A program made the translations under genes and the position numbers. 37,914 nucleotides of DNA from assembly GCA_030537155.1 (NCBI GenBank), contig JAUNOH010000012.1, positions 1 to 37,914 on the forward strand, written 5' to 3'. The notes under the pieces are model-generated. The model was not told the DNA's origin. It saw only the letters and a program-made list of their open reading frames with translations, and made no database searches. Shown here in pieces: positions 1,908-30,658 of the stretch. The DNA comes from Bacillota bacterium. GTDB taxonomy: Bacteria > Bacillota_I > Bacilli_A > RFN20 > CAG-826. The number at the start of each line of letters is the position of its first letter. Position 1 is the first letter of the stretch.

Positions 1908-2581
1908 GCCTTCTCCTCGCTTTCCCCGCCCTCGGGGGCTTCATCCTCCTCCAAAGACTCGTGGGTATAACGGATCTCGGCGATGCGGATGAGGTTGCTC
2001 AATAAGAAGGTAAGGAAGACGATGAGCATCAAGGTGTAGGTGACTATCTCGGTCCACACCCCATCCGCGGCGGCGATGGAGATGATGCTGGTGACGATGC
2101 CGATGACGCTCCCCAATAAAGAGGTGGCGAGCCTGATTTTCTTCTTCGGGAGCTTCAGGGGGACGTAATGGATGGCGGTGGCGATCCCAAAGCAGACGAA
2201 GGCGATGACCTCAAAGGAGGCCGTGGTCCAATCCAAGGCGTCGGTCTCGGTGTAATTCGACCAGAGTAAGAAGAAGCTGGCGATGGCCAATAAGCCGAAA
2301 TATCCCATGCCCATCGCGTTTTGGGCCCATTTCTTTTGATCGGTGTAGTAATTCATCATCAAGAAGGCCCCGAAGACGCCGAGCAAGACGGCGACCGCGG
2401 TCGTGAAAAGGCAATAGAAGACCAACAGGGTGGCGATTTCCCCGGATAGGCTATCCTGGGCGGCGGCCAGGAGGATGATGACGAAATAGGCGTAGGCCGT
2501 ATAAAGGAAAGTCGGCCCCGCGAATAAGGAGAATAGGCCCGACATGAGCCTACTGAATTTAATGCCCCTCTCGAAATCCAT
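1904..2581 (-). CDS. Multi-pass membrane protein
   Basis: 225 residues with six predicted membrane helices (about residues 12-35, 45-75, 90-108, 120-140, 150-172 and 178-198) and a Glu-rich C-terminal tail. Family not recognised. The ATG at 2581 has no Shine-Dalgarno sequence. A perfect TATAAT (2589-2594) lies just 7 nt upstream with TTAAGG 17 bp further back, so this gene probably has its own leaderless promoter embedded in the 3' end of the preceding gene. It is translationally coupled to the next gene by an ATGA overlap. Confidence 0.75.
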   Translation of the reverse strand: MDFERGIKFSRLMSGLFSLFAGPTFLYTAYAYFVIILLAAAQDSLSGEIATLLVFYCLFTTAVAVLLGVFGAFLMMNYYTDQKKWAQNAMGMGYFGLLAIASFFLLWSNYTETDALDWTTASFEVIAFVCFGIATAIHYVPLKLPKKKIRLATSLLGSVIGIVTSIISIAAADGVWTEIVTYTLMLIVFLTFLLSNLIRIAEIRYTHESLEEDEAPEGGESEEKA

Positions 2582-27880: not shown

Positions 27881-28138
27881 TCATTCGTAATGCGTCCACA
27901 TCCTGATGACCTTGATGGTCTTCTCGGCTTCGTAAACTTGATAGACAAGCCTATGCTGGACGTTGATCCTTCTTGAATAGACGTGTTCGAACCCAGCGAG
28001 CTTCTCGTATGACGGGGGCGTCTGGAACGGGTTCTCCTCCAATAGATATAGCAATGCCCTGGCTTTTTTGAGAAGGGAAGGGCTGGATTTTATCTTCTCG
28101 AAGTCCTTCTTGGCCTGCTTGGTGAAGACTATTTCCAT
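27881..28138 (-). CDS. yoeB: YoeB/Txe family mRNA interferase toxin
   Basis: 85 residues from the ATG at 28138. It ends in RMWTHYE, matching the catalytic C-terminal His-Tyr of YoeB, with the family's RINVQHRLVYQV block before it. YoeB binds the ribosomal A site and cleaves mRNA behind the start codon. The ATG lies within the last codons of the antitoxin gene (10-nt overlap), the normal arrangement for translational coupling. A few codons of upstream frame (to 28153) lie inside yefM and are not expected to be used. Confidence 0.93.
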   Translation of the reverse strand: MEIVFTKQAKKDFEKIKSSPSLLKKARALLYLLEENPFQTPPSYEKLAGFEHVYSRRINVQHRLVYQVYEAEKTIKVIRMWTHYE

Positions 28139-28371
28139 TCGACCTTCTCGCACTCCTCAAGGGGCGTGTTGACGCCTTCAAGGATGCTTTCATACATCCC
28201 GGGGATGCCCGCAAGGGCAAGCGATTCGATGAGGGAGTTATAGTCCTCCTCGGACATCATGATGACGTTGCCTTCCTTGGTAGAAATGTTGATGACATCG
28301 TTATATTTAATGCAGGAAGACACGGTCTTGAAGAGGTTGTTCCTGATGGCGGTTATGTTTATCGTGGTCAT
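28129..28371 (-). CDS. yefM: YefM/Phd family antitoxin
   Basis: 80 residues from the ATG at 28371, with AGGAGG 7 nt upstream; a longer frame to 28419 crosses the operator and is rejected. The N-terminus TINITAIRNNLFKTV is the DNA-binding Phd/YefM fold, MMSEEDYNSLIESL is the family motif, and the acidic C-terminus should wrap the toxin. It represses its own operon together with YoeB through two palindromes at 28387-28408. The stop codon is TAG. Confidence 0.92.
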   Translation of the reverse strand: MTTINITAIRNNLFKTVSSCIKYNDVINISTKEGNVIMMSEEDYNSLIESLALAGIPGMYESILEGVNTPLEECEKVEWK

Positions 28372-28386
28372 GGTTTTTCCTCCTAT

Positions 28387-28419
28387 ATGTACATTAAAGC
28401 GTACGCTTCGATTAGTCAA
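28387..28419 (-). promoter_or_regulatory. yefM-yoeB promoter with two-palindrome operator
   Basis: Palindromes AAGCGTACGCTT (28397-28408) and ATGTACAT (28387-28394) share a GTAC core and are centred exactly 12 bp apart, the geometry known for the long and short YefM sites of E. coli. TTGACT (28414-28419) is the -35, so the palindromes cover the spacer and -10 region. Confidence 0.75.
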
Positions 28420-28877: not shown

Positions 28878-30269
28878 ATGGACAAATTCACCGATATCAT
28901 CGAAAACCTGCTGTCATTCAAAGACGAATACGAGTGGCTTGATTTCAAGGAGAACTGGTTCTCAAAGGACGAGATAGGGGAATACATCTCTGCCATATCC
29001 AATGGCGCAGCAATTTGTGGAAAGGAATATGGATACATTCTTTGGGGCGTAAACGACAAAACTAAAAAGGCGGTAGGCACATCCATCCATTTCGACAAAG
29101 ACTTGGATGGTGAACCCTACAAGCATTATCTATCGAGGAACCTAAGTCCAAGGATACCTTTTGAATGCGCTGAATGCGACTATGCGGGGAAGCGGATGGT
29201 GCTTCTGATAATACCGGCCGCCAAGGCGGTTCCGACAAAGTTTAAGGGCACCAGCTATATTAGGATCGGCTCGAGCAAAGAACGGGCGGACCGTTTCCCC
29301 GAATGGGAGATCAAGCTGAACACCACATTGGTGAATGGCTACCCCACCATCGTCAACAACGCCGCCCCGGACTACGCCCAGGAGCTGACCTTTGCGAAGC
29401 TTTTCATGTACTACGCCGCCAAGGGAATAGCCCTGAAAAGGGAGACTTTCGAGAAGAACCTTAAACTGAGGAACAAAGACGGTAAATACAACGTGATGGC
29501 CTACATACTTTCCGACCAGAACGCCATACCGGTCCGCATCTCCATTTTCAGTGGGAAGGACAAGACGGCGCCTCTATTTTCGGTAAAGGAATTCGGAAAC
29601 GACTGCATCATGTATTCCATGGACAAAATACTGGAATACGGCGATGCCATAAACATAATCCAAGCCGACGAGGCGGGGAGGATATCGGAACGCAAAGACG
29701 TCCCTCTCTTCGACTACGAGGCTTACCACGAGGCGGTGCTGAATGCGTTCATCCACAATAAGTGGCTGACCTTGAACGGTCCCCAGATCAGCATATTCGC
29801 GGACAGGATAGAGATACTGTCGCACGGAGGGTTGGCCTTAGACCAAGACGAGGAAGGCTTTTATTCAGGGGCCAGCATCCCAGTCAATGACGTCTTGGCC
29901 TCGATCTTCCTGCAACTAAGGATCAGCGAGAGATCGGGAAGGGGCGTTCCAAAAATCGTCGGCAAATATGGGAAAGAAGCGATTCTCATCGAAAAAAGCA
30001 GAATCACGGTAACCATCCCTTTTCAGAGAGTAGGGGGCGCGAACTTTGCCGTCGGTGAGGGAGGGGTATCCAATAAAAAACTGAACAGGACGCAATCTCT
30101 TATCGTAAGCCATATGAGAGACAACCCGAACATTACCTTCAAGCAATTGGCTCATGAACTAGCCTTGAAGGAGATAACCATCAAGAAAAACGTCTATGTG
30201 CTACGTGATCTGGGAATCATTACAAGGGTGGGCGCCAGGAAAAACGGTTATTGGTTGGTGAATGAATGA
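28878..30269 (+). CDS. AlbA_2 (Schlafen-like) ATP-binding regulator
   Basis: 463 residues. The N-terminal 150 residues form an AlbA_2 domain (EYEWLDFKENW near 17-27, then a GKEYGYILWGV strand and GTSYIRIGSS near 126). The middle has the HATPase_c_4-like region typical of these proteins (EAVLNAFIHNKW near 286, IFADRIEILSHGG, ERSGRGVPKI). The C-terminal 65 residues look like a winged helix (FKQLAHELALKEITIKKNVYVL). Such proteins are annotated as putative transcriptional regulators and often sit in accessory or defence islands. ATA codons are more frequent than in neighbouring genes, a hint of transfer. A weak AAGGCGG lies 11 nt upstream of the ATG. Confidence 0.85.
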   Translation: MDKFTDIIENLLSFKDEYEWLDFKENWFSKDEIGEYISAISNGAAICGKEYGYILWGVNDKTKKAVGTSIHFDKDLDGEPYKHYLSRNLSPRIPFECAECDYAGKRMVLLIIPAAKAVPTKFKGTSYIRIGSSKERADRFPEWEIKLNTTLVNGYPTIVNNAAPDYAQELTFAKLFMYYAAKGIALKRETFEKNLKLRNKDGKYNVMAYILSDQNAIPVRISIFSGKDKTAPLFSVKEFGNDCIMYSMDKILEYGDAINIIQADEAGRISERKDVPLFDYEAYHEAVLNAFIHNKWLTLNGPQISIFADRIEILSHGGLALDQDEEGFYSGASIPVNDVLASIFLQLRISERSGRGVPKIVGKYGKEAILIEKSRITVTIPFQRVGGANFAVGEGGVSNKKLNRTQSLIVSHMRDNPNITFKQLAHELALKEITIKKNVYVLRDLGIITRVGARKNGYWLVNE

Positions 30270-30444: not shown

Positions 30445-30536
30445 TGGCGGAGGCTTAGGGATTCGAACCCTAGCTGGGACGGAGCCCCACTATCGGTTTT
30501 CAAGACCGACCCCTTCAGCCGCTTGGGTAAGCCTCC
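30445..30536 (-). tRNA. tRNA-Ser (TGA)
   Basis: 92 nt with encoded CCA. Acceptor GGAGGCT / AGCCTCC, discriminator G, anticodon loop CTTGAAA, a long variable arm typical of class II serine tRNAs, and a normal TTCGAAT T-loop. Confidence 0.95.
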
Positions 30537-30540
30537 GCAT

Positions 30541-30615
30541 TGGTGGTCCACCGGTGTGCTGCCCACCGGACCTAGGCCTTATAAGGACCCCGCTCTCCTG
30601 CTGAGCTAGTGGACC
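30541..30615 (-). tRNA. tRNA-Ile(TAT)-like gene with abnormal T-loop
   Basis: 75 nt with encoded CCA. Acceptor GGTCCAC / GTGGACC, D-arm GCTC-AGCAGGA-GAGC with G18G19, anticodon loop CTTATAA (anticodon TAT), and T-stem CGGTG / CACCG all pair. The T-loop is GGCAGCA, however, lacking T54, T55 and A58. It lies 4 nt upstream of tRNA-Ser in the same transcript. It may be a functional divergent tRNA, a degenerate copy or a tRNA mimic. Confidence 0.7.
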
Positions 30616-30629
30616 ATGACGGCTAAAGA

Positions 30630-30658
30630 ATTATATACATTCAGGCCCGAAGAATAAA
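30630..30658 (-). promoter_or_regulatory. Promoter of tRNA-Ile-like/tRNA-Ser operon
   Basis: TTTATT - 17 bp - TATAAT (30630-30635) on the minus strand, with the -10 ending 14 nt before the first tRNA. Confidence 0.65.

Follow-up and report, generated by a model that had tools for sequence, protein, structure and literature searches.

Among the closest described counterparts of the gene analyzed here is the tRNA-Ile(UAU) of Mycoplasma mobile, which reportedly decodes the isoleucine codon AUA and which we take to have an ordinary elbow. AUA is also served by the lysidine route, that is, by TilS together with tRNA-Ile2(CAU). Few parts of tRNA are as conserved as the elbow formed by the D-loop and T-loop. 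Both tRNA finders and textbook definitions rely on its letters, though these are usual for a tRNA and not strictly defining. In bacteria, the canonical elbow consists of G18-Psi55, G19-C56, and U54-A58.

The window, a 37,914-nt stretch from the draft genome of an uncultured gut or rumen Bacilli species, contains a tRNA-Ile(UAU) gene. As in M. mobile, a UAU anticodon would serve AUA and the lysidine route has been lost. Unlike in M. mobile, the elbow is rewired, in a single species, and tRNA-Ile(UAU) occurs in two or more genera of a Bacilli family. Compared with the canonical elbow, the window tRNA keeps G19-C56, R57, G53-C61, and the cloverleaf, but it has A18/G55 in place of G18/U55 and G54/G58 in place of U54/A58. 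Its D-loop, of the form A-N-CAG-N-A, is shared with A18/G55 tRNAs of phages (vB_EliS-L02 and the IMG/VR contigs L275-L302, L345, L385, and L389). The T-loops of these phage tRNAs read GGCRGCA or TGCRANN, and the GGCAGCA group also shares the window tRNA's D-stem, GCTC/GAGC. The phage tRNAs sit in phage tRNA clusters with many anticodons, whereas the window gene is chromosomal and syntenic.

We consider it likely that the window gene yields a functional tRNA-Ile(UAU), which is probably alone in decoding AUA in this species, and that the lysidine route was replaced, tilS lost, and the elbow switched as a unit. Judged from sequence, the window gene appears to be a functional alternative to the canonical design rather than a defective copy, because many phage tRNAs carry this swap as well. 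The proposed history begins with a replacement, within the genus, of the TilS/tRNA-Ile2(CAU) route by tRNA-Ile(UAU), at the position before tRNA-Ser(UGA) where relatives keep tRNA-Ile2(CAU). Loss of tilS in this species would have followed. In the window lineage, the elbow would have switched as a unit, from G18-U55 to A18/G55 and from U54-A58 to G54/G58, while the D-loop shrank to 7 nt and G19-C56, A57, and G53-C61 were retained.

The tRNA-Ile(UAU) gene and its orthologues

The gene lies on the minus strand at positions 30541-30615 and is 75 nt long including the encoded CCA (30541-30543). All 21 of its 21 stem pairs form: an acceptor stem GGTCCAC/GTGGACC, the D-stem GCTC/GAGC, an anticodon stem GGGTC/GGCCT, and a T-stem CGGTG/CACCG, with TA, G, and AGGTC as the joining segments and A73 (30544) as discriminator. 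The stems of 7, 4, 5, and 5 bp, the 7-nt anticodon and T-loops, and the CCA make up a standard tRNA cloverleaf, as the first-pass annotation of the window had recognized along with the odd T-loop. When the 38-kb window was scanned mechanically for cloverleaves with a UAU anticodon and 18 or more of 21 pairs, this was the only place found. The anticodon TAT (30581..30583) sits in the loop CTTATAA, with U33 and a purine at 37, as in an AUA decoder. The 7-nt D-loop AGCAGGA (30596..30602) corresponds to A14 G15 C16 A18 G19 G20 A21, and the T-loop GGCAGCA (30557..30563) to G54 G55 C56 A57 G58 C59 A60; an identical T-loop occurs in phage tRNAs. From the canonical set of G18G19 and T54 T55 C56 R57 A58, only positions 19, 56, and 57 are kept.

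These letters had first been read as making the T54-A58 and G18-T55 contacts impossible. The canonical pairs are indeed absent, but the elbow is not simply lost: the D-loop has changed along with the T-loop, as in phage tRNAs. Covariation of positions 18 and 55 suggests that A18 and G55 touch in space, replacing the G18-Psi55 contact, and G54 may pair with G58 in place of U54-A58. G19-C56 is the outer stack recognized by RNase P and the ribosomal L1 stalk. With the elbow still closed, we propose that the tRNA can fold and decode. GGCAGCA lacks both U54 and U55, which rules out the modifications m5U54 and Psi55 in this loop.

ARAGORN run on the window did not report this tRNA, nor did Rfam when run on the whole window or on the region with the neighboring tRNA-Ser included. 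Given the candidate region alone, the Rfam tRNA model (RF00005) scored it at 42.3 bits (E 3e-8), above the gathering score of 29. The idea that Rfam is blind to this tRNA was therefore rejected, and its earlier misses were presumably caused by the neighboring tRNA 4 nt away. Among the other 39 tRNA sequences that ARAGORN found in the window genome, which include a 27-nt fragment, the T-loops are all ordinary, with TTCRA in 37 and TCCGA in two.

That neighbor, tRNA-Ser(UGA), lies 4 nt downstream on the same strand (30445..30536), in keeping with the pairing noted in the first-pass annotation. Ahead of the pair, 14 nt upstream of tRNA-Ile(UAU), is a -10 box with a perfect match to TATAAT (30630..30635, minus strand), and TATAAT-like boxes are present upstream in relatives too. 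The good promoter claimed earlier holds for this box; the -35 is only weak, and a consensus promoter scan did not list the promoter. We infer that this tRNA is transcribed, charged by IleRS, and used in decoding; codon usage and the missing alternatives described below lend indirect support to charging with isoleucine and to AUA decoding.

Absence from relatives, together with a second normal AUA tRNA, had been set as the mark of a degenerate copy. Instead, tRNA-Ile(UAU) is present in 24 of the 31 genomes of the genus (the window genome counted), usually directly ahead of tRNA-Ser(UGA), as in the window. None of these orthologues shows the same T-loop, with all 23 others carrying a normal TTCAA loop. 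A pattern blind to the T-loop recovered 39 other tRNA-Ile(UAU) genes in the order, every one with TTCAA, which leaves GGCAGCA unique to the window gene among the tRNA-Ile(UAU) of the order; a further match, in G091, proved not to be a tRNA. No UAU tRNA was found in seven congeners. Six of them also yielded no tRNA-Ser(UGA), which makes it probable that their assemblies do not include the locus; the seventh, G041, has a tRNA-Thr upstream of tRNA-Ser(UGA). Other candidates were discarded: weak BLAST matches in G014, G019, and G024 are not tRNAs, those in G005b and G008 are tRNA-Arg, and low-scoring matches in the window genome (C12:3144 and C8:3399) are not AUA tRNAs.

The window gene shares with its relatives' tRNA-Ile(UAU) the place before tRNA-Ser(UGA), six of seven acceptor pairs, and all five T-stem pairs. 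Given this shared locus and the normal TTCAA loops of the relatives, it is orthologous to a normal tRNA, and its elbow has changed. Relative to its nearest relatives it has seven stem changes, with three pairs altered on both sides and none broken; seven random stem changes would leave all 21 pairs intact with a probability of about 1e-4. Its anticodon stem is unlike that of every congener.

Two further observations concern the UAU tRNAs of the order. In another family, G064 carries one (C77:197-266) that is nearly identical to that of G010, by horizontal transfer or contamination. In G020, G024, and G007 (L103, L104, and L105), the acceptor stem of tRNA-Ile(UAU) starts with CCTCCC, at the same place before tRNA-Ser(UGA).

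The A18/G55 elbow in phage tRNAs

Viral tRNAs were sampled by pattern. Requiring a UAU anticodon and a GGCAGCA-type T-loop in IMG/VR yielded one phage contig, whose tRNA(UAU) has the 7-nt D-loop ATCAGCA. Leaving the anticodon free and requiring the A-N-CAG-N-A D-loop together with the T-loop yielded 28 contigs with nine anticodons and nearly perfect cloverleaves. When only the T-loop GGCAGCA was fixed, the D-loop was A-N-CAG-N-A in 28 of 29 viral cloverleaves (two further matches were not tRNAs). The exception, L431, combines GGCAGCA with G18, and the coupling of the two loops is thus strong but not absolute. When only the D-loop was fixed, G55 appeared in 64 of 67 distinct cloverleaves among the matches listed, in which positions 54/58 were T/A, G/G, C/A, or A/T.

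We then scanned all loci with no conditions on 18, 19, or the T-loop, that is, blind to 18 and 55. Among 7-nt D-loops, G55 accompanied A18G19 in 92 of 95 cases, and a pyrimidine (U55 or C55) accompanied G18G19 in 84 of 86. D-loops of 8-10 nt had never been selected on; G55 was present in 47 of the 59 without GG, and U55 or C55 in 177 of the 179 that contain GG. The association involves many anticodons and acceptor stems, with Fisher p-values of 3e-45 and 8e-36 that overstate independence because the sequences are related.

A covariance model (R1) was built from 23 phage tRNAs, with the window gene left out. In these 23, 98.8% of cells are paired, and 16 of 21 pairs show changes on both sides. 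The window tRNA scored 77.5 bits against this model, compared with at most 58.2 for canonical tRNAs and about 43-51 for the tRNA-Ile(UAU) of congeners. With AGCAGGA, GGCAGCA, and an intact cloverleaf, it belongs to the A18/G55 class (A-N-CAG-N-A D-loop, G55, and intact cloverleaf). In three viral arrays of tRNA genes, G55 is present in all cloverleaves found (L389, 20/20; L345, 10/10; L385, 8/8). Each of these is of the A18/G55 type with a TGCRA T-loop and apparently no encoded CCA. A separate viral contig, L294, also contains a match to the selenocysteine tRNA model (1937-2021, minus strand; RF01852, 51.3 bits).

Two related phages provide a direct comparison. Their tRNA-Val(GAC) genes have similar acceptor and T-stems, but the loops read AGCGGTA and TTCAAAC in Lacusarx (Sphingobium) and AGCAGTA and GGCAGCA in vB_EliS-L02 (Erythrobacter). 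Thus, the elbow switches as a unit and in place. The window gene conforms to this pattern, with both loops changed, the T-stem identical to that of congeners, and six of seven acceptor pairs the same.

Alternatively, all or part of a phage tRNA gene might have recombined into the chromosomal locus, giving a working tRNA with an imported elbow. This alternative concerns origin only and is compatible with a functional AUA decoder. The same D-loop/T-loop pair is found in phage contigs with the UAU anticodon as well (L275, L292, and L294), and an import could explain an anticodon stem unlike that of all congeners. However, the T-stem lies inside the block that would have been imported, and its identity with the nearest congeners would then have to be a coincidence. 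The matching acceptor pairs, the chromosomal synteny, and the in-place switches seen in other phage tRNAs also argue against it, and we regard an import as unlikely. Plasmids gave no match to the window tRNA, and plasmid matches to an A18/G55 array tRNA were canonical at 18/55 where read.

On chromosomes, the A18/G55 elbow was found in one metagenome-assembled genome of one species. We give about even chances to the broader proposition that it is a second natural elbow, reached repeatedly and independently in phages, sometimes across whole arrays, and on at least one cellular chromosome, where it belongs to the only AUA decoder. A covarying alternative in phages and an organism that apparently relies on it for an ordinary codon would mean that nature has solved the elbow in more than one way. 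A18/G55 tRNAs are natural variants with which to ask what the canonical letters are for, be it folding, modification, EF-Tu, RNase P, or tRNA-cutting defenses. For phages, the swap could make tRNAs independent of modification by the host or let them evade tRNA-cutting defenses, and it may shield them from enzymes that recognize the canonical elbow. Escape from such defenses has been proposed to occur via anticodon-loop changes (PMC10264068). Among openly searchable papers, we found no published description of the A18/G55 coupling.

AUA readers in the genus

The draft assembly of the window genome comprises 37 contigs totaling 1.33 Mb, with a completeness of about 91%. No tRNA-Ile(CAU) is among its own tRNAs, and none was detected in the 31 genomes of the genus with a pattern that detects tRNA-Ile2(CAU) in 78 genomes of the order; companion patterns recovered the elongator tRNA-Met in many congeners. 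A search of the assembly for another AUA-reading tRNA, which the first-pass annotation had advised, also found none.

TilS orthologues are present in 25 of the 31 congeners, and none was found anywhere in the window genome assembly. The mfd-S4-tilS-ftsH operon there (L249, contig C14) has mfd, the S4 gene, and ftsH intact, with a 118-bp gap where tilS would stand between the S4 gene and ftsH. A weak TIGR02432 match at C21:85757 is not TilS and looks TtcA-like (CSIC cysteine motif, 381 aa). The genome has neither part of the lysidine route in its assembly, and the earlier description of the UAU anticodon as a minority solution for AUA is supported. The gene is also missing from this operon in G022 (L252), G021 (L253), and G019 (L254), and no S4 gene was found at the operon in G022 and G021. 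FtsH and Mfd trees were too poorly resolved for counting loss events.

Within the genus, the TilS PP-loop departs from SGGxDS (e.g. GTYGPDS), and it departs further in G001, G002, G005, and G018. Altered or degenerate forms (L210-L234) include GTYGPDS, CNYSMES, CNFSPDG, and ANFGLSS, in genomes where tRNA-Ile2(CAU) was not found, whereas the motif is SFGPDS or SNGPDS in members of the family that retain tRNA-Ile2. To judge by these motifs, TilS is possibly losing its first function in the genus, which appears to display a stepwise replacement of the lysidine route.

The codon itself is in regular use. ATA makes up 497 of 4691 Ile codons (10.6%) in 278 kb of the window genome and occurs in 126 of the 158 ORFs there; in two congeners, its share is 6.4% and 8.7%. 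The species therefore needs a working AUA reader, for which its assembly offers no candidate besides the window tRNA. The ATA richness of the AlbA_2-like gene singled out earlier is real (16 of 45 Ile codons), but it is a local feature against the genome-wide 10.6%. Positions 27881-28419 and 28878-30269 of the window hold a toxin-antitoxin-looking gene pair and this AlbA_2-like gene, adjoining the tRNA pair and possibly forming a mobile island. Separately, AGG is the commonest Arg codon of the window genome (997 vs 309 for CGG), unlike in G010, and no tRNA-Arg(CCU) was found in the assembly.

These data bear on whether the gene is decaying, with a drifted T-loop and with AUA read by another tRNA missing from the draft. 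The T-loop consensus is broken, ARAGORN misses the gene, and a second AUA tRNA could be unassembled, since the incomplete assembly also lacks, for example, tRNA-Leu(UAG). However, five of the seven T-loop positions differ while every stem pair is intact and several stem changes are compensatory, and the elbow exactly matches the phage module. Together with the absence of tRNA-Ile(CAU) from all 31 congeners, the in situ deletion of tilS, and the frequent use of AUA, this makes a pseudogene improbable. We think it still less probable that the gene encodes a regulatory or otherwise non-translational tRNA-like RNA, for which a Bacillus cereus pseudo-tRNA with a regulatory role is a precedent (PMC3399842), given the encoded CCA, the intact anticodon loop, the compensatory evolution of the stems, and a frequently used codon for which no other tRNA was found. 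An assembly or sequencing artefact is the least credible reading, because errors would not produce the coordinated D-loop/T-loop combination of dozens of phage tRNAs plus compensatory stem changes, even though only one assembly carries the gene.

A second non-canonical elbow

In 22 genomes of sister genera, we found a chromosomal tRNA-Ile2(CAU) with the D-loop AAAGGAA and the T-arm T53 GTCRGGA T61. Sixteen belong to genus g44 (G212, G213, G215, G216, G218-G228, and G230), four to g26 (G107, G118, G119, and G129), and one each to g23 (G100) and g39 (G191). In every locus fetched (L259-L268 and L272-L274), the gene lies ahead of tRNA-Ser(UGA). Like the window tRNA, it is an AUA reader before tRNA-Ser(UGA) with a 7-nt D-loop and G54 plus G58. 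It differs in keeping G18/U55, in T53/T61, and in its T-loop, and it needs TilS or a substitute. With the A18/G55 and GTCRGGA elbows together, the AUA-reading tRNAs of this family have left the canonical elbow at least twice.

ARAGORN misses this second type too, while Rfam scores it at 46-50 bits. It is also found in 30 viral stretches, and Bacillus phage vB_BsuM-Goe19 (Okubovirus) carries an unannotated tRNA(CAU) with this elbow (L434:1994-2065).
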